In this document: piece after piece, positions 5,126 through 22,271 of the stretch
Numbering within the stretch: the first letter of the stretch is position 1
Layout of the letters: each line of letters opens with the position of its first letter
DNA from: Flavobacteriaceae bacterium R38
GTDB taxonomy: Bacteria > Bacteroidota > Bacteroidia > Flavobacteriales > Flavobacteriaceae
Length of the DNA: 64,000 nucleotides
Direction: 5' to 3'
NCBI GenBank assembly: GCA_009901575.1
Contig: WXYP01000001.1
Coordinates: forward strand, 186,001 to 250,000
Made by a program: the position numbers and the translations under genes
The notes under the pieces: model-generated
What the model saw: only the letters and a program-made list of their open reading frames with translations
Told to the model about the DNA's origin: nothing
The model's database searches: none

Positions 5126-7423
5126 TTATTTTCCTTTAACTTTTTCCTTAAACTTATCAAAGTCACTTTTAGTTTCTTTTTTAGGCCAGGAATTGTTTTC
5201 TGTATCTACATCTGCAGTTTCTAGCTTAGGGTCTACAGTGATAGAAACTATTTCTTTTTCAGAAGCAATAGACTTGCTGGTTACATTATCATTAAGTCTC
5301 CATATTTGTGCAGGATATGTTTCTGTTTTAGAAGTCCCGTCGGCATATTTATATTCTACAATGATTGGCATTACCAAACCACCTGGTTTTTCGAATGTAA
5401 TATTGTAGAAATATTTAGGATTCTTAATGTTTTTACGCTCTTCTTTAGTAAAATTATCTGCGATATACTCTTTTAATGTTGAAGATGCATTAGAAGGAGA
5501 TGTATTTCGAAGGCTTTCTTCAAAATCTTCGCTACCTTCTTCCACTAAGAATACAAAATCTTTGATATCTCTGTTGAAACGTTGCGCTATATTTTTACCG
5601 TACTCGTTTGGTTTTGACGACACATAATATTTTTTAACGTCTTTTATAGCAATATCAACATAATCTGTAGTATAGAACCATCCTCTCCAGTACCAATCTA
5701 AATCTACAGCAGATGCATCTTCCATAGTTCTAAAGAAATCTTCTGGTGTAGGGTGCTTAAATTTCCAGCGATTTGCATATTCTCTAAATGAATAGTCAAA
5801 CAATTCACGCCCCATAATAGTTTCACGAAGTATGTTTAGTGCTGTTGCTGGCTTTCCGTAAGCATTGTTACCAAATTGGTATGTATTCAATCCTTTAGTC
5901 ATGATAGGAGCAATAAAGTCTTGGTTACCTCCCATGTAAGGGATGATATTCTTTGCTGGCCCTCTACGAGATGGATAAGACTCGTGGCCTTCTGATAATG
6001 CATCAGGATACCACTCTCCAAAATCTTGCTCAGCTACATACTGTAAGAATGTATTTAATCCTTCATCCATCCATGTCCACTGACGCTCATCGCTATTTAC
6101 AATCATAGGGAAGAAGTTGTGCCCTACTTCGTGAATAATTACACTAATCATTCCGTATTTGGTACGATCACTATAGTTTCCGTTTTTGTCAGGACGACCA
6201 AAGTTAAAGCATATCATTGGATACTCCATTCCCATAGGAACGTGTACAGAAATTGCTTTGTGATATGGGTAATCAAATGTCATTCTTGAATATGATTTCA
6301 ATGTACTGGCTACAGCATTTGTAGACCACTGCTCCCAAAGCGGATTTCCTTCTTTAGAATATAATGATACCGCCATTACATCTTTACCACCTACTTTAAC
6401 AGCCATCATGTCCCAGATAAACTTTCTAGAAGATGCAAATCCGAAATCACGTACATTTTCAGCTTTTAATTTCCAGGTTTTTTTCTTTTTACTCTTTTTC
6501 TTTTCTGCAGCTTCAGCTTCTTTTTGAGTAACTATGATTACTGGTTTGTCATATGATTTTTTCGCTTTTCTGTAGCGCTCCATCATATCTTTAGTAAATA
6601 CTTCTTCTCTGTTAGTTAATCTACCAGTACCATCTACGATATGATCTGCAGGTACAGTAATATTTACTTCAAAATCTCCAAATGGTAACGCAAACTCATC
6701 ACGTCCAAAGAATTGAGAATTTTGCCAACCCTCTACGTCATTGTATACTGCCATTCTAGGATAGAACTGAGCCATTGCATAAATTCTATTATCATCTTCT
6801 TCGAAATACTCATATCCAGAACGTCCTCCGTCTTTCACGTGGTCATTAATATTATACCACCATTTAATAGAAAAAGAGAATTTGTCCCCGGTATTCATTG
6901 CTTTAGGCAATTCAATGCGCATCATAGTACCGTTGATGATGTGAGGTAAATTTTTTCCATTAGTATCTTTTACTTCAAGAACATTAAATCCTCCGTCAAA
7001 ACGTTCTTTAAAGAAAGTATTGGCAAAATTTCCTGCTGTAGTGGCCGGAGTTATTCTGCTTCCTTGAATTAGAGGAGTTTTAGAATCTCTGGCTCTCATG
7101 TTTTGATCTAATTGTACCCAAAGATAAGTCAACTGATCTGGAGAATTATTAGTATAAGTAATAGTCTCGTCACCAGATAACCTTGCTTTTTCATCGTCAA
7201 TCTCCACATTCATTTTGTAGTCTGCCTGTTGTTGATAATATGCCGGTCCCGGAGCCCCAGATCCTGTTCTAAACATATTAGGCGTTGCAAATTCATCATA
7301 CAATTGTTTGAATTTGTTTTGATTGGTGTGACCTGGCCTACGTTTAGATTGCTCTTGGTCTTGTGCAAATGCGTTAACCGAGACAAATACAAACGCAAGT
7401 AAGAAGTATTTAATAGTCTTCAT
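5126..7423 (-). CDS. M1 family metallopeptidase (aminopeptidase N-like), secreted
   Basis: A 765 aa protein with a signal peptide (1-20, ending NAFA-Q). The zinc site is HEVGH at 431-435 with the third ligand Glu454 in WMDEGLNTF. The exopeptidase motif, GAMEN in classical M1 enzymes, reads GMEYP here (398-402), as in a divergent branch of the family. A lysine-rich insert (about 302-317) separates the N-terminal beta domain from the catalytic domain. It is the last gene of the minus-strand run starting at 11168 and lies 64 bp after the DUF6702-like gene. It probably trims peptides in the periplasm or outside the cell; the substrate is unknown. Confidence 0.93.
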   Translation of the reverse strand: MKTIKYFLLAFVFVSVNAFAQDQEQSKRRPGHTNQNKFKQLYDEFATPNMFRTGSGAPGPAYYQQQADYKMNVEIDDEKARLSGDETITYTNNSPDQLTYLWVQLDQNMRARDSKTPLIQGSRITPATTAGNFANTFFKERFDGGFNVLEVKDTNGKNLPHIINGTMMRIELPKAMNTGDKFSFSIKWWYNINDHVKDGGRSGYEYFEEDDNRIYAMAQFYPRMAVYNDVEGWQNSQFFGRDEFALPFGDFEVNITVPADHIVDGTGRLTNREEVFTKDMMERYRKAKKSYDKPVIIVTQKEAEAAEKKKSKKKKTWKLKAENVRDFGFASSRKFIWDMMAVKVGGKDVMAVSLYSKEGNPLWEQWSTNAVASTLKSYSRMTFDYPYHKAISVHVPMGMEYPMICFNFGRPDKNGNYSDRTKYGMISVIIHEVGHNFFPMIVNSDERQWTWMDEGLNTFLQYVAEQDFGEWYPDALSEGHESYPSRRGPAKNIIPYMGGNQDFIAPIMTKGLNTYQFGNNAYGKPATALNILRETIMGRELFDYSFREYANRWKFKHPTPEDFFRTMEDASAVDLDWYWRGWFYTTDYVDIAIKDVKKYYVSSKPNEYGKNIAQRFNRDIKDFVFLVEEGSEDFEESLRNTSPSNASSTLKEYIADNFTKEERKNIKNPKYFYNITFEKPGGLVMPIIVEYKYADGTSKTETYPAQIWRLNDNVTSKSIASEKEIVSITVDPKLETADVDTENNSWPKKETKSDFDKFKEKVKGK

Positions 7424-7487
7424 TATAAAAAATTAAATTAATAGGAGCGGAAAATTACTCAAAAAATAGATGCGTTATCAGGAGTTG

Positions 7488-7997
7488 TTAAAAATTTAAC
7501 AATCCTTTATCATTTTCTTTGATTAGAATAAAACTTTTTTTCTTTCTTTTAAATTTAAAATGAACAATATTCTGTTGTTCTTCAAAGGTTTCAAAAAAGA
7601 GTTGATTCTCTATTTCAATGGTTTCTATGCTGTTAATATCAATATCCTCGATTTCTAAATAGCATTTTATAACATCGTTATCATATTCTTTACCCAGAAA
7701 ATTATAAGATACGTCTTTCCCGTCGATCTTCAATAAGATTTTGCTTTTTACATACCTCTCGATATAGTCTTCAGCATTTTCTAATTCGTTAGATGAAGTA
7801 AGATTTAAATCGATTTCATAGCGATCATTTAATAATTCTTCTAAATCATCAATAAATATCCTGCTTAATAATTGGATAGATTTATCTTTTTCGGAATAAT
7901 TAATTTCAGTAACACTTAAATAAAATTTATGAGCGGTAAATGATAATAACAAAGGAATAATGAGAAATAATACCGATATCTTTATAGTGTTTTTCAT
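7488..7997 (-). CDS. DUF6702-like secreted protein
   Basis: A 169 aa protein with an N-terminal hydrophobic signal (about 1-22). It has the pattern HKFYLSVTEI near 23-32 followed by SRIFIDDLEELL at about 46-57, which I associate with the flavobacterial DUF6702 family often found beside M1 peptidases. The rest is rich in charged beta-type segments. Function is unknown; co-transcription with the M1 gene (64-bp gap) suggests an accessory or structural role in the same process. The family name is from memory of the motif and should be verified by HMM. Confidence 0.65.
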   Translation of the reverse strand: MKNTIKISVLFLIIPLLLSFTAHKFYLSVTEINYSEKDKSIQLLSRIFIDDLEELLNDRYEIDLNLTSSNELENAEDYIERYVKSKILLKIDGKDVSYNFLGKEYDNDVIKCYLEIEDIDINSIETIEIENQLFFETFEEQQNIVHFKFKRKKKSFILIKENDKGLLNF

Positions 7998-8070
7998 GAG
8001 TTAACTACATATTTTTTTCAAAAATAAACAAAAAGTATTCCATAATATAGAAGATTGCAAAAGGCGATTG

Positions 8071-17083: not shown

Positions 17084-17116
17084 TTTGCATAATTGATAGT
17101 AATACTATTATTTTTG
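17084..17116 (+). promoter_or_regulatory. promoter of the TetR-ABC-HlyD-TolC operon
   Basis: TTTG at 17084-17087, a 21-bp spacer and TATTTTTG at 17109-17116, a full TTTG/TAnnTTTG match. It lies between the gpmI terminator and the regulator ATG at 17135, so it serves the exporter operon. Confidence 0.7.
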
Positions 17117-17134
17117 CATGTAAAATATTTGGTA

Positions 17135-17809
17135 ATGCATAGAATACTATCTGAATTAAAAATCAAAGTCAACGAAAAGATCTATTTGAAAGATCCTGAG
17201 TCTTCAGATTTAGGGAAAAAAGTAATAGAGAACAGTATTTCGATGATTTACGAATTGGGTTTTGAGAACTTTACATTTAAAAAGCTAGGAGAAAAAATTG
17301 GCTCTAATGAAAGTTCTATATATCGGTATTTTGAAAATAAACACAAGTTGTTATTGTATCTGACTTCCTGGTATTGGGGTTGGGTTGAGTATAAACTGGT
17401 GTTTGCTACTCACAGTATCTCAGATCCTGAACTTAAATTAAAAGTTGCATTAGAGATGGTAACAAAGACAACCGAGAAAGACAGTACTTTTTCTCATATT
17501 AATGAAGTCTTACTTAATAAAATTATCATCTCAGAATATTCTAAATCCTATTTAACAAAAGAAGTTGACTCAGAAAATAAAGAAGGCTTTTTTGCTATTT
17601 ATAAACGTTTGATTAATAGATTATCAGAAATGGTATCCGAGTTGAATCCGGATTATCCTTATGCAAAAAGTCTGATGTCAACTGTTGTTGAAGGTGCATT
17701 GCATCAACATTTTTTAAAAGAGCATTTTAATTCTATAACAGATTGTGATGCTTCATTAACCCCTACAAGTTTTTTTACAGATTTAGTTTTTTCAACATTG
17801 AAGAAATAA
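17135..17809 (+). CDS. TetR/AcrR family transcriptional regulator (exporter operon head)
   Basis: A 224 aa regulator from the ATG at 17135. An upstream TTG at 17093 would put the start inside the promoter and is rejected. The helix-turn-helix is at about 30-70 (MIYELGFENFTFKKLGEKIG, then SNESSIYRYFENKHKLL). The C-terminal ligand domain has no recognisable signature. It is first in the run and 16 bp before the ABC gene, so it probably regulates its own operon in response to an exported or envelope-derived ligand. That role is inferred from position. Confidence 0.85.
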   Translation: MHRILSELKIKVNEKIYLKDPESSDLGKKVIENSISMIYELGFENFTFKKLGEKIGSNESSIYRYFENKHKLLLYLTSWYWGWVEYKLVFATHSISDPELKLKVALEMVTKTTEKDSTFSHINEVLLNKIIISEYSKSYLTKEVDSENKEGFFAIYKRLINRLSEMVSELNPDYPYAKSLMSTVVEGALHQHFLKEHFNSITDCDASLTPTSFFTDLVFSTLKK

Positions 17810-17825
17810 AACAATCAATCACGCT

Positions 17826-19499
17826 ATGGAAAAAGAAAAACGTTCTCCAATTAACAGATTTTGGAGTTTATTACAGCTGGACAAAAGAGATGTGTTACAA
17901 GTTTTTTATTATGCAATTTTTGCTGGAATTGTGAGCTTGTCATTACCGTTGGGTATCCAGGCAATTATTAATTTGATTCAGAGTGCTCAAATTAGCACCT
18001 CCTGGATAGTCCTGGTCGTTCTCGTGACTTTAGGTGTTGGATTTGTAGGAGCCCTGGAGCTAATGCAGATGCGTATCATAGAGAATATACAACAGAAAAT
18101 ATTTACACGATCTTCATTTGAATTTGCTTATAGATTTCCTAAAATCGAAATGAGTGAGTTGCGTAATTATTATCCGCCGGAATTGGCAAACCGCTTTTTT
18201 GATACACTTACAATTCAGAAAGGTTTATCAAAAGTTTTAATAGACTTTCCGGCTGCTATACTGCAAATTATTTTCGGATTATTGCTGTTATCTTTTTATC
18301 ATCCGTTTTTTATTCTGTATGGACTTTTGTTGCTATTCCTTGTTTATGTAGTATTTAAATTAACGGCGCGGCGCGGATTACAAACTAGTTTGGACGAATC
18401 TAAGAATAAATATAAAGTAGCACATTGGCTACAGGAAGTAGCACGTACTATTGTTAGTTTTAAGTTGTCAGGAAAGACAAAACATGCCCTGGGAAAAACA
18501 GATAATTTGGTATCTGGTTACCTGGAAGCAAGGGAAGGACACTTTAAGGTGCTGGTACTGCAGTTTATTCAAATGATTGGTTTTAAAATTCTCATCACAG
18601 TTGGTTTGCTTTTAATTGGAGGGATTTTGGTATTAAATCAGAGAATGAATATTGGTCAGTTTGTAGCAGCAGAGATTATCATATTATTAATTATAAATTC
18701 TGTTGAGAAAATGATCAAAGGGTTAGAGTCTTTTTATGATGTTCTAACTTCACTGGAGAAATTAGGACAGGTAGTTGATAAAGAGCTGGAACCTCAAACT
18801 GGTGAGAAACCATTTAGCGAGTCAGAAAGCTTTACGTTAGAATTGGATAAGGTTAGTTTTAAAGTTCCAGAAGGCAAACAAATCCTTGAGAATATCTCAT
18901 TAAAAATTAACCCTGAATGTAATATCTTGTTAAACGGATCAAATAGCTCCGGGAAAACTACATTATTACGATTAATAGCTGGGTTAATAACTCCAACTAC
19001 TGGAAAAATCTATGTGAATAATACTTCAATAGGCTCTATCAACCTTAATTATTACCGATCGTTTTTAGGGCAATCTCTTACAGAAGAATCTCCGTTTGAA
19101 GGGACAATACTTGAAAATATAACGTTTGGGAACAAAGATATTTCGAGAGAAGACGTGTATTGGGCAATAGAAAAAACCGGGCTTACCGAGTTTGTTAAAG
19201 AACAACCGGAAGGACTAAATACCATCATTTATCCTGAAGGAAAACAAATGTCATATACGATAACGAAAAAAATAGTACTGGCAAGAAGTATAGTAGAAAA
19301 GCCAAAGTTATTGCTCTTAAAAAATCCGTTAGATCAGTTTGAAGAATCAGAAACTACAAGGATTATTGATTTTTTAACCGATCCTTCAAATCCGTGGGCT
19401 CTAATTGTTATTAGCAATAATAAAAGATGGAAGAAAGGATGTAGTAGAGTAATTACCATAGAAAATGGTCAAATCATAAACGATAACGAAAATGCTTAA
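17826..19499 (+). CDS. ABC exporter-like membrane protein with degenerate ATPase domain
   Basis: A 557 aa fusion of a six-helix exporter domain (about 22-310) and a nucleotide-binding domain (about 335-557). There is no C39 peptidase domain. Walker A is present (GSNSSGKTT, 371-379) and a Q-loop Gln416 is possible. The signature LSGGQ is replaced by MSYTI (475-479), the Walker B Asp and catalytic Glu by Lys499-Asn500 in LLLLKNP, and the H-loop His by Asn531 in VISNN. Such a domain may bind ATP but is unlikely to hydrolyse it by the normal mechanism. It overlaps the HlyD-like gene by 8 bp, so it is the inner-membrane part of a tripartite system. The frame is intact; it is not a pseudogene. Confidence 0.88.
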   Translation: MEKEKRSPINRFWSLLQLDKRDVLQVFYYAIFAGIVSLSLPLGIQAIINLIQSAQISTSWIVLVVLVTLGVGFVGALELMQMRIIENIQQKIFTRSSFEFAYRFPKIEMSELRNYYPPELANRFFDTLTIQKGLSKVLIDFPAAILQIIFGLLLLSFYHPFFILYGLLLLFLVYVVFKLTARRGLQTSLDESKNKYKVAHWLQEVARTIVSFKLSGKTKHALGKTDNLVSGYLEAREGHFKVLVLQFIQMIGFKILITVGLLLIGGILVLNQRMNIGQFVAAEIIILLIINSVEKMIKGLESFYDVLTSLEKLGQVVDKELEPQTGEKPFSESESFTLELDKVSFKVPEGKQILENISLKINPECNILLNGSNSSGKTTLLRLIAGLITPTTGKIYVNNTSIGSINLNYYRSFLGQSLTEESPFEGTILENITFGNKDISREDVYWAIEKTGLTEFVKEQPEGLNTIIYPEGKQMSYTITKKIVLARSIVEKPKLLLLKNPLDQFEESETTRIIDFLTDPSNPWALIVISNNKRWKKGCSRVITIENGQIINDNENA

Positions 19500-20847
19500 T
19501 ATATCTCATAATAAATTAAATCGTAAGGTAGATTTAAAAGAATACCGCGCGATGCAAAAAATATCTCATAAAAGAGATTACAGGTTTTTTAATAGGCTTT
19601 TAATGATATTCGCAGGAATTGTTTTAATTGTCTTGTTATTGCCGTGGACCCAAAATATTTCAGGAAAAGGATATGTAACTACATTAAAACCAGATCATCG
19701 TCCGCAAACTATTCAATCACCTATCCCGGGAAAGATTGAGAAATGGTATGTTAAAGAAGGGGATTTCGTAAATAAAGGAGATACGATCTTATTTATCTCT
19801 GAGATCAAAAATGAATATTTTGATCCAAATTTGCTTTCCAGAACAGAAGATCAAATAAATGCAAAAAGCAGGGCGGTAAATTCATATGAAGAAAAAGTAA
19901 AAGCCCTTAATTTACAGATAGGCGCCCTTCAGAATGAACGTCGATTAAAATTAGAACAGGCGAATAATAAATTATTGCAATCTAAATTAAAAGTTCAAAG
20001 TGATAGCATTGATTTTGAGGCTGCTAAAACAAACATAAGCATAGCTGAAAAACAATATAACCGAGTTTCTCAATTAAATAAAGAAGGGTTAAAGTCATTG
20101 ACAGATGTTGAAGAGAAGAAATTAAAACTCCAGGAAACGCAAGCAAAATTAGTATCTCAGCAAAATAAGTTATTGGCAAGTAAAAATGAAGTCATTAATG
20201 CCGAAATTGAGATCAATAGAACTGTAGCTGCATTTACAGATAAAATATCGAAGGCACAAAGCGATAAGTTTACAGCAGAGTCCAGTCAATACGATACAGA
20301 AGCTCAGGTAACCAAATTAAAAAACCAATATACCAATTACGAGTATAGAAGTGATTTACATTATATAAGAGCACCGCAAAGTGGCTTTATCAATAAAGCT
20401 ATAAGAGCAGGAGTAGGAGAGACTTTTAAAGAAGGGGAACGATTGGTAGGTATCATGCCTTCAAATTATGAATTGGCAGTAGAAACTTATGTAAGGCCAA
20501 TAGATTTGCCTTTAATTCATCTTGGAGAAAAAGTCAGAGTTCAATTTGATGGGTGGCCTGCTATTGTTTTTAGTGGGTGGCCTAACGTATCCTATGGAAC
20601 TTATGGCGCAAAAGTGGTAGCAATTGAAACATTTATTAGTGACAATGGAGGGTATAGGATTTTGTTGGCCCCGGATGAAGAAGACCATGAGTGGCCTACA
20701 GATATCAGAGTAGGATCTGGTGCAGCTACCATAGCGCTGCTGGAAGATGTTCCTATTTGGTTTGAATTATGGAGACAGTTGAATGGTTTTCCACCTAATT
20801 ATTATCAACCGACAAATGCGGTAAATACCAAAACAGCAAAAAAATGA
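19492..20847 (+). CDS. HlyD-family periplasmic adaptor (membrane fusion protein)
   Basis: A 451 aa adaptor linking the inner-membrane exporter to the TolC-like channel. It has one transmembrane helix (about 36-53), a lipoyl-like half motif (SPIPGKIEKWYVKEGDFVNKGD at about 74-95), a long coiled-coil hairpin (about 115-285, rich in K/E/Q/L), the second lipoyl half (RAPQSGFINKAI near 290-300) and a beta-barrel region. The C-terminal part contains GWP repeats (DGWPAIVFSGWP). It overlaps the ABC gene by 8 bp and the TolC-like gene by 4 bp, so the three subunits are translationally coupled. Confidence 0.92.
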   Translation: MLNISHNKLNRKVDLKEYRAMQKISHKRDYRFFNRLLMIFAGIVLIVLLLPWTQNISGKGYVTTLKPDHRPQTIQSPIPGKIEKWYVKEGDFVNKGDTILFISEIKNEYFDPNLLSRTEDQINAKSRAVNSYEEKVKALNLQIGALQNERRLKLEQANNKLLQSKLKVQSDSIDFEAAKTNISIAEKQYNRVSQLNKEGLKSLTDVEEKKLKLQETQAKLVSQQNKLLASKNEVINAEIEINRTVAAFTDKISKAQSDKFTAESSQYDTEAQVTKLKNQYTNYEYRSDLHYIRAPQSGFINKAIRAGVGETFKEGERLVGIMPSNYELAVETYVRPIDLPLIHLGEKVRVQFDGWPAIVFSGWPNVSYGTYGAKVVAIETFISDNGGYRILLAPDEEDHEWPTDIRVGSGAATIALLEDVPIWFELWRQLNGFPPNYYQPTNAVNTKTAKK

Positions 20848-22271
20848 GAAAAATTCTTTTGTTATTGTTTATTATTTTGTCAGCTTCTTTGAAAGCTCAG
20901 GAAGAAATAATAGATGGGATTCAAGCAACATTTGATTTTGAAGAGTACCTCACTATAGTTAAGAAGTTTCACCCAATAGCAAAACAAGCCGATTTATTGG
21001 TAAACTCTGCCAGGGCTGAGGTGTTGAAGGCAAGAGGCGGATTTGATCCAAAACTGGAAATTGGATATGATGGAAAAGAATTTTTAGGATCTGATTATTT
21101 TGACATCCTTAATGCTACTTTGAAAATACCTACATGGTATGGGGTAGAGTTTAAAGCTGGTTTTGATGATAACGACGGATCTTTTTTGAATCCTGAGAAT
21201 TTCATTCCGGGAGATGGTCAGCTTTTTAGTGCGGGAGTGTCTGTTTCTTTAGGAGAGGGATTGTTTATTAATAAACGAATGGCGACTCTAAAAAAAGCAA
21301 AAATATTTAGAGAATTGTCCCAGGCAGAACGAACACTGCAAGTCAATCAAATTTTAACAGATGCAAGTATTGCCTATTTTGAATGGTTAAAATCATATAA
21401 AGAGTTTACCGTTTTTCAACGCTTTTTGGAAAATTCAAGAATACGATATGAAGGGATACGTTCTCAGGTTATTCGTGGTGATAAAGCTGCTATAGATACC
21501 ATAGAAGCTGGGATTACTATCAGAAACAGGCAACTGGAACTGGAACAATCCGAATTAAAATACCTGAAATCAAAATTAGCATTGTCAAATTTTTTGTGGA
21601 TCAAAGATAATATCCCTGTAGAATTGGAGGATAATGTAGTTCCGGATGAAAACTTAGATGTTTCTATAGATCAGACATTACAAATCAATAACAATTTAGG
21701 ATCTGAGGTTAGACTGGATCAACACCCGAAAATAATCGCATTACAGCAAAAAATTAAGTCCCTCGAAGTAGATAAAAAATTTAAAGCAGATAAGCTGAAA
21801 CCCAGGTTAGATGCTAATTATAATTTTCTTTCCAGTGATGGAGATCAGTTAAATACCTTTAATACCAGGGATTTTAAAGCCGGATTTAAATTTAGTTTTG
21901 ATCTTTTTCTTAGAAAAGAACGGGGAGATTTGAAGCTGGCAAAATATAAAGTTCAGGATGCAGAACTCAATTATAGATCAGAACGATTGCAGCTGCAAAA
22001 TAAAATAGAAGCCAACTATAGAGAATTGTTATCTTTTAATGATCAGATCATTTTAATTGATCAAATCACCAGGGATTATGATGTATTGCTGAAAGCAGAA
22101 GAACGAAAGTTTGGGGTTGGGGAAAGCTCTGTGTTTTTGATTAATTCCAGAGAACGTAAACTTATAGATTCTCAACTTAAGCAAATAGAAATACAGAATA
22201 AGCTTTTTAAAACCAAAGTAAAACTGTTTAATAGTTTAGCAATAGATCCGGATACTGTAGTAAATCCATAA
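20844..22271 (+). CDS. TolC-family outer-membrane channel protein
   Basis: A 475 aa outer-membrane efflux protein with a signal peptide (1-18, SASLKAQ). It has the duplicated TolC plan: long alpha-helical coiled-coil halves (about 150-260 and 300-465) around short beta segments (LEIGYDGKEF, LDANYNFLSS). The ATGA overlap with the HlyD-like gene shows it belongs to the same exporter. It is more divergent than E. coli TolC but typical in length for Bacteroidota. Confidence 0.9.
   Translation: MRKILLLLFIILSASLKAQEEIIDGIQATFDFEEYLTIVKKFHPIAKQADLLVNSARAEVLKARGGFDPKLEIGYDGKEFLGSDYFDILNATLKIPTWYGVEFKAGFDDNDGSFLNPENFIPGDGQLFSAGVSVSLGEGLFINKRMATLKKAKIFRELSQAERTLQVNQILTDASIAYFEWLKSYKEFTVFQRFLENSRIRYEGIRSQVIRGDKAAIDTIEAGITIRNRQLELEQSELKYLKSKLALSNFLWIKDNIPVELEDNVVPDENLDVSIDQTLQINNNLGSEVRLDQHPKIIALQQKIKSLEVDKKFKADKLKPRLDANYNFLSSDGDQLNTFNTRDFKAGFKFSFDLFLRKERGDLKLAKYKVQDAELNYRSERLQLQNKIEANYRELLSFNDQIILIDQITRDYDVLLKAEERKFGVGESSVFLINSRERKLIDSQLKQIEIQNKLFKTKVKLFNSLAIDPDTVVNP

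Follow-up and report, generated by a model that had tools for sequence, protein, structure and literature searches.

Gene arrangement and predicted fold

The window examined here is a 64,000-nucleotide stretch of the Flavobacteriaceae bacterium R38 genome (GenBank accession number WXYP01000001.1; positions 186,001 to 250,000). A gene for a half-transporter of the ABC exporter type was found in it, preceded by a regulatory gene and followed by genes for a membrane fusion protein (MFP) of the HlyD type and an outer membrane protein of the TolC type (Table 1). The first-pass annotation, made from the sequence alone, had described an intact gene coupled to HlyD- and TolC-like genes, and this description holds, as the frame at 17826-19499 is unbroken throughout and translates to 557 aa. 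Both overlaps given there are also borne out: the ABC gene overlaps the MFP gene by 8 bp (ABC stop codon ending at 19499, MFP ATG from 19492), and the MFP gene overlaps the TolC gene by 4 bp (MFP stop codon ending at 20847, TolC ATG from 20844). Among 80 named loci of the Flavobacteriaceae type (L031-L110), some of which run to contig ends, a TetR relative adjoins the ABC gene in 78, an MFP gene is present in 77 and a TolC gene in 76.

Table 1. Features of the exporter locus, with positions in the window
Feature	Position	Strand	Basis
TetR-family regulator, upstream of ABC gene	17093..17809	+	Pfam TetR_N, E 1.6e-07
ABC exporter half-transporter, 557 aa, with catalytically degenerate nucleotide-binding domain (NBD)	17826..19499	+	Translation, Pfam, alignment
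Transmembrane domain (TMD), residues 8-317, six long helices	17847..18776	+	AlphaFold2 model, Pfam ABC_membrane
Glu86 (TM2), family-specific ionisable residue	18081..18083	+	Glu in 120/120 rows with degenerate NBD and 25/25 NBD-free rows
Coupling helix 2 region, residues 204-222	18435..18491	+	Model helix 209-215; loss of constraint
His239 (TM5, cytoplasmic part), family-specific	18540..18542	+	174/175 with degenerate NBD, 25/25 NBD-free
Lys254 (TM5), Lys/Arg throughout the Bacteroidota family	18585..18587	+	174/175 with degenerate NBD, 25/25 NBD-free
Glu283 (TM6), family-specific acidic residue	18672..18674	+	Glu in 172/175 with degenerate NBD (3 Asp), 25/25 NBD-free
NBD, residues 338-554, with only Walker A left of its motifs	18837..19487	+	Pfam, AlphaFold2 model, alignment
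Walker A GSNSSGKTT, residues 371-379, kept	18936..18962	+	Alignment to control exporter
Thr419 where control has Q-loop Gln	19080..19082	+	Alignment
MSYTI, residues 475-479, in place of LSGGQ	19248..19262	+	Alignment
Lys499-Asn500 in place of Walker B Asp and catalytic Glu	19320..19325	+	Alignment
Asn531 in place of H-loop His	19416..19418	+	Alignment
HlyD-type MFP	19492..20847	+	Pfam HlyD_3, Biotin_lipoyl_2
TolC-type outer membrane protein	20844..22271	+	Pfam OEP, E 1.7e-38

Pfam placed ABC_membrane at residues 29-292 and ABC_tran at residues 354-501 of the window protein. The AlphaFold2 model, a monomer computed from a 67-row alignment (mean pLDDT 84.4, pTM 0.71), predicts a complete type IV exporter half, with a six-helix TMD fused to an NBD fold. 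Its top structural match by VIA-align was HlyB (8dck_B; Z 29.9, rmsd 3.1, 548 residues, 20% identity). TmrAB (6rai_B) had a VIA-align Z of 29.6, and TmrAB was first by E-value in Foldseek. SbmA does not figure among the 50 fold matches listed, an absence that is uninformative.

An N-terminal extension of ~140-250 aa, which the window protein does not have, is present in many relatives (ORFs of 690-832 aa; L147-L155, L157-L160, L180 and L211). No Pfam match was found for it in five extension-bearing proteins among nine proteins scanned, and a comparison with the PDB returned two weak matches (E 0.1).

Catalytic motifs of the nucleotide-binding domain

The motifs of the window protein were located by alignment to an MsbA-like exporter with canonical motifs encoded in the same genome (L221). 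The motif names are those in general use, and the positions rest on the alignment. Lys377 of Walker A is present, and the LSGGQ signature, the Walker B Asp, the catalytic Glu, the H-loop His and the Q-loop Gln are all absent. The alignment bears out the first-pass annotation on the kept Walker A and on all four losses that it named. That annotation had placed Walker A at 371-379, MSYTI at the LSGGQ position, Lys499-Asn500 at the positions of the Walker B Asp and catalytic Glu, and Asn531 at that of the H-loop His; it had overlooked the fifth lost motif, the Q-loop Gln, replaced by Thr419.

An orthologue was found in 30 of 60 genomes, that of R38 included, with E-values no higher than 7e-122 (the best of all remaining matches was at 2.2e-35), and LSGGQ and the Walker B Asp are missing from all 30. 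A larger set of 175 fetched full-length relatives was also examined, which includes near-duplicates between collections and leaves 12 less degenerate outgroup proteins and one split gene, L188, to be counted apart. In this set Lys377 is kept in 166, Asp499 in 8, Glu500 in 24 and His531 in 2, and catalytic position 500 is Asp in 136. The orthologues of the control exporter, found in 10 of 19 genomes searched and taken together with that of R38, have Lys377, Gln419, Asp499, Glu500, His531 and the signature GGQ in 11 of 11.

The first-pass annotation had allowed that decay might be confined to this strain, should homologues retain the motifs. This is ruled out, because Asp499, Glu500 and His531 occur together in none of the 175 full-length relatives, and alignment of these relatives shows the NBD to be catalytically degenerate, as judged from its motifs, across the family. 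One relative of the same family (L026, in genome G034) has lost Walker A as well, in a full-length frame that is still unbroken.

Selection on the two domains

Mean amino acid identity was compared in the same 11 genomes. In the family it is 74.8% for the TMD and 48.8% for the NBD, whereas in the control exporter it is 74.2% and 78.9%, respectively; TMD identity exceeds NBD identity in 55 of 55 family pairs and in 6 of 55 control pairs. NG86 estimates of dN/dS for 11 full-length pairs range from 0.015 to 0.129 for the TMD and from 0.032 to 0.252 for the NBD and are higher for the NBD in all 11, the values being rough as many dS exceed 1 and 9 of the 20 pairs run were left uncounted (dS saturated in a domain, or no NBD). 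Purifying selection acts on the NBD of full-length members too, at about half the strength seen on the TMD, indicating that the NBD keeps some role. This role would be one other than that of an ordinary ATPase. The earlier statement that the gene is being kept agrees with the purifying selection and with a decay of the NBD that is common to its relatives. A pseudogene is ruled out by the open frame together with the dN/dS of both domains.

Relatives without a nucleotide-binding domain

When 395 genomes of the phylum were searched with a profile, six genes matched it over the TMD alone. Searches of the three families concerned covered 301, 200 and 150 genomes and, with counts taken from match listings by TMD-only coverage, gave NBD-free forms in 69, at least 38 and 32 of them, respectively, or at least 139 of 651 in all. 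Twenty-six such loci were fetched with their flanks, and L188, a split gene, was set aside. The remaining 25 encode open frames of 332-369 aa (the typical form is ~335 aa) that stop after the last TM helix. The start of the MFP gene falls, in all 25, within a span from 35 bp ahead of the TMD stop codon to 66 bp beyond it, and the TolC gene comes next. In a TMD tree of 157 rows the 25 proteins group as a single clade (SH-aLRT 100) that lies among proteins with degenerate NBDs. The NBD has been deleted in this one clade, whose operon still comprises the TMD, MFP and TolC. That the NBD-free genes arose by assembly error is ruled out by the MFP gene lying directly behind in 25 of 25 loci and by the single clade.

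No NBD gene lies inside the operon in any of the 25 loci; outside it, 5 of the 25 fetched stretches contain other NBD genes, at no conserved place. No recurrent partner gene was found in these loci beyond those for the TMD, MFP and TolC, save a TetR gene (8 of 25), and the other recurrent ORFs mostly appear antisense to the TMD, MFP and TolC genes. One genome (G640, contig C3) carries two NBD-free copies ~22 kb apart. L188, a sister of the NBD-free clade, has its TMD and NBD split between two ORFs that overlap on the minus strand (5843-6553 and 6529-8025); the NBD ORF has its own ATG, and the arrangement represents either gene fission in progress or a frameshift.

Rooting with other exporters placed 11 proteins of a less degenerate outgroup before all Bacteroidota proteins with a degenerate NBD or none. 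The 12 proteins of this outgroup retain the Walker B Asp (12), the catalytic Glu (11) and the H-loop His (8), and none has the Q-loop Gln. Three relatives on Sphingomonadales plasmids (L233-L235), examined from 14 alphaproteobacterial plasmid matches, branch earlier still; HlyD and TolC genes accompany them, and their NBDs have decayed further still, Walker A included. The rooted order suggests that catalytic decay took place in two branches and that the NBD was lost once, at a deep node, an order that is provisional because long branches meet at the root (a warning given by the program). Decay in the separate Sphingomonadales branch suggests, in turn, that the TMD of this family is prone to losing its motor. 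In L234 (1362-3914), on a Sphingobium plasmid, a DUF2309 gene is located 43 bp upstream of the exporter gene with the degenerate NBD.

Coupling helices and ionisable residues

The NBD-free proteins were compared for variability with 30 subsets of proteins with degenerate NBDs, matched for identity. The largest gain in variability was at coupling helix 2 (residues 204-222), a docking site for the NBD; it ranked first of 297 alignment windows (19 columns). Relaxation had also been expected at the tip of coupling helix 1, but this is no more variable in the NBD-free proteins (rank 225 of 305), and in the ICL1 region E119 and N122RFFD126 are 100% conserved in them. Something could still dock at these residues where the NBD is gone.

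The family NBD was also sought as a separate gene, with the NBD of a full-length sister (L211) as the query, and was absent from 14 of 14 NBD-free genomes. The best E-values there, 1.8e-24 to 2.1e-16, correspond to background exporters or ATPases, and the positive comparison, another full-length sister genome, gave 1.9e-66. As coupling helix 2 is relaxed and the family's own NBD is gone from these 14 genomes, docking of an ordinary NBD on the NBD-free TMD seems unlikely, although a shared ATPase might act through other contacts.

Four ionisable residues in the membrane helices distinguish the family (Table 1). They were compared with 22 other exporters from related genomes, of which 4 carry Asp instead of the catalytic Glu and 1 is without the H-loop His; none of the 22 has Asp or Glu at position 86, His at 239 (one has Lys), Lys or Arg at 254, or Asp or Glu at 283 (one has Arg). 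Glu283 is also found in all 12 outgroup proteins and is the one residue kept in all three Sphingomonadales relatives, which have Tyr at position 254 (3 of 3) and Ala at position 86 (2 of 3). As the same ionisable residues are present in the 12 less degenerate outgroup proteins, they predate the decay of the NBD, and E86, H239, K/R254 and E283 may bind substrate rather than couple to an ion.

Proposed mode of operation and alternatives

With an ATP motor that is long broken, and deleted in some relatives, the drive is probably another energy source such as an ion gradient. On balance, it is fairly probable that the locus encodes a tripartite exporter derived from type IV ABC exporters that has given up ATP hydrolysis and would instead be driven by an ion gradient. 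In such an assembly, the inner-membrane TMD would be joined through the HlyD-type adaptor to the TolC-type duct, and two TMD chains would form an alternating-access exporter. The gradient, most likely one of protons, would act via E86 in TM2, H239 and K/R254 in TM5 and E283 in TM6, and a small substrate, with export under TetR regulation, would be passed into the MFP-TolC duct. The pseudo-NBD of full-length members, that of the window protein included, may be a retained structural domain or a regulatory domain that senses nucleotide. For the energy source, the substrate and the role of the pseudo-NBD, this is what we infer from the evidence above.

The first-pass annotation had offered three ways in which such a protein might be powered or used, namely by a separate ATPase, by a heterodimer partner, or as an envelope bridge not driven by ATP. 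A stand-alone or shared NBD encoded elsewhere could power the TMD in trans; NBD-free genomes encode numerous further ABC ATPases, some of which have no TMD and which include short ORFs of ~210-390 aa matched at 1e-10 to 1e-17, the ICL1 residues are fully conserved in proteins without an NBD, and the L188 sister genome encodes its NBD as a separate overlapping ORF, whether by fission or by frameshift. However, the operon holds an NBD gene in 0 of 25 loci, NBD genes elsewhere in the fetched stretches (5 of 25) have no conserved place, no gene other than the occasional TetR gene recurs beside those for the TMD, MFP and TolC, the family's own NBD is gone from all 14 genomes and coupling helix 2 has lost constraint. 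Powering in trans is rendered less likely by these results and is considered rather unlikely. The part of the earlier proposal closest to the evidence is that the system is not driven by ATP, with an ion-gradient-driven exporter favoured over a passive bridge. A passive or regulated bridge, in which the TMD, MFP and TolC serve as a gated conduit or scaffold and perform no uphill transport, would explain the loss of the ATP motor alongside retention of the envelope-spanning parts. Strong constraint on intramembrane and intracellular-loop residues, seen with a degenerate NBD and with none, would nevertheless suit a moving transporter better, and the bridge is judged improbable.

Full-length members may alternatively run a non-canonical but working ATP cycle that was lost later and in the NBD-free clade alone. 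Asp at the catalytic position in most full-length members, the kept Walker A and the purifying selection on the NBD are in keeping with this. Against it, the Q-loop, signature, Walker B and H-loop residues were lost together and vary freely between relatives, and identity has fallen to 49% in this NBD compared with 79% in a working one, making residual ATPase activity very unlikely. Known heterodimeric exporter pairs are usually encoded by adjacent genes. The least likely of the readings considered is that the degenerate half pairs with an active half-transporter and contributes a degenerate site, the arrangement of TM287/288 and TmrAB. In its favour, 166 of 175 relatives retain Walker A, and degenerate sites are reported to be common in heterodimeric exporters (PMC7756269). 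Yet no second half-transporter recurs beside the gene, leaving the earlier suggestion of a partner without support; of the 80 named loci, just 1 has a further ABC ORF in the stretch fetched, and there it does not adjoin the gene. As the signature and Walker B sides are both lost, pairing with an active half would leave no more than one site in partial working order, and NBD-free members could offer no site at all.

The preferred reading, an exporter driven by an ion gradient, bears on the conversion between primary (ATP-driven) and secondary (ion-driven) transporters, an open question for which there are few natural cases. As one and the same operon persists through the decay and final loss of the motor, the question becomes testable on close relatives with and without the NBD. 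If this reading is true, many Bacteroidota annotations of 'ABC transporter ATP-binding protein' have been given to proteins that possess no ATPase and require none, and a TolC pump can be powered by ABC-type TMDs without ATP.

Comparison with known systems

No account of this exporter family was present among the full-text matches listed, a set that lay mostly outside the subscription literature. Among the closest known systems are the type I secretion exporters, such as HlyB/D-TolC, with which the family shares the HlyB fold and HlyD- and TolC-like genes in one operon. It differs from them in that the catalytic motifs are lost and, in one clade, the NBD is deleted. The window protein is also without a C39-like N-terminal domain and falls far below the NCBIfam cut-offs for type I secretion (TIGR03375, 180.9 versus 693.1 bits). 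Heterodimeric exporters (TmrAB, TM287/288 and BmrCD) resemble it in fold, in the case of TmrAB, and in their degenerate catalytic residues, whereas here there is no linked partner half, the catalytic and signature sides are both lost, and relatives free of the NBD exist.

The TMD alone has been studied in engineered proteins, which serve as precedents for the proposed ion coupling. The proton coupling of LmrA and MsbA has been debated. LmrA truncated of its NBD is reported to be a proton-coupled transporter that needs Glu314 in TM6 (PMC2704374), and MsbA without its NBD is reported to be a proton-dependent transporter (PMC4979069). The E314 of LmrA and the E283 found here are both Glu residues of TM6, a correspondence that is only putative. 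While LmrA-MD and MsbA-MD are engineered, the NBD-free clade is natural, vertically kept and accompanied by its tripartite partners.

SbmA is described as proton-driven and as a proposed descendant of a full-length ABC transporter or exporter by loss of the NBD (PMC13316013), and the SLiPTs (SbmA/BacA) are described as peptide importers found only in Pseudomonadota (PMC12003926). By analogy, the NBD-free clade may be likened to SbmA/BacA as an ABC-exporter TMD working without an NBD. SbmA/BacA has lost both coupling helices and has a glutamate ladder, whereas the NBD-free clade shows relaxation at coupling helix 2 and none at coupling helix 1. SbmA/BacA has no NBD, as is also true of the NBD-free clade in all 25 of the 25 members checked, whereas the window protein has a pseudo-NBD. 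No match to the SbmA_BacA family was obtained at the cut-offs used, and the window protein and two NBD-free members match ABC_membrane (PF00664). SbmA/BacA performs peptide import, whereas the gene of this family sits with those for an MFP and TolC.

A less degenerate ATPase, a conserved dead ATPase, as in the window protein, and no ATPase domain at all survive as a series within this family. The chances are about even that the series represents a second natural route, apart from that of SbmA, from an ABC exporter to an ion-driven exporter within an MFP-TolC pump, with living intermediates. The precedent for an ABC TMD without an NBD is SbmA; different here are the separate origin, the MFP/TolC export operon and the surviving intermediates.
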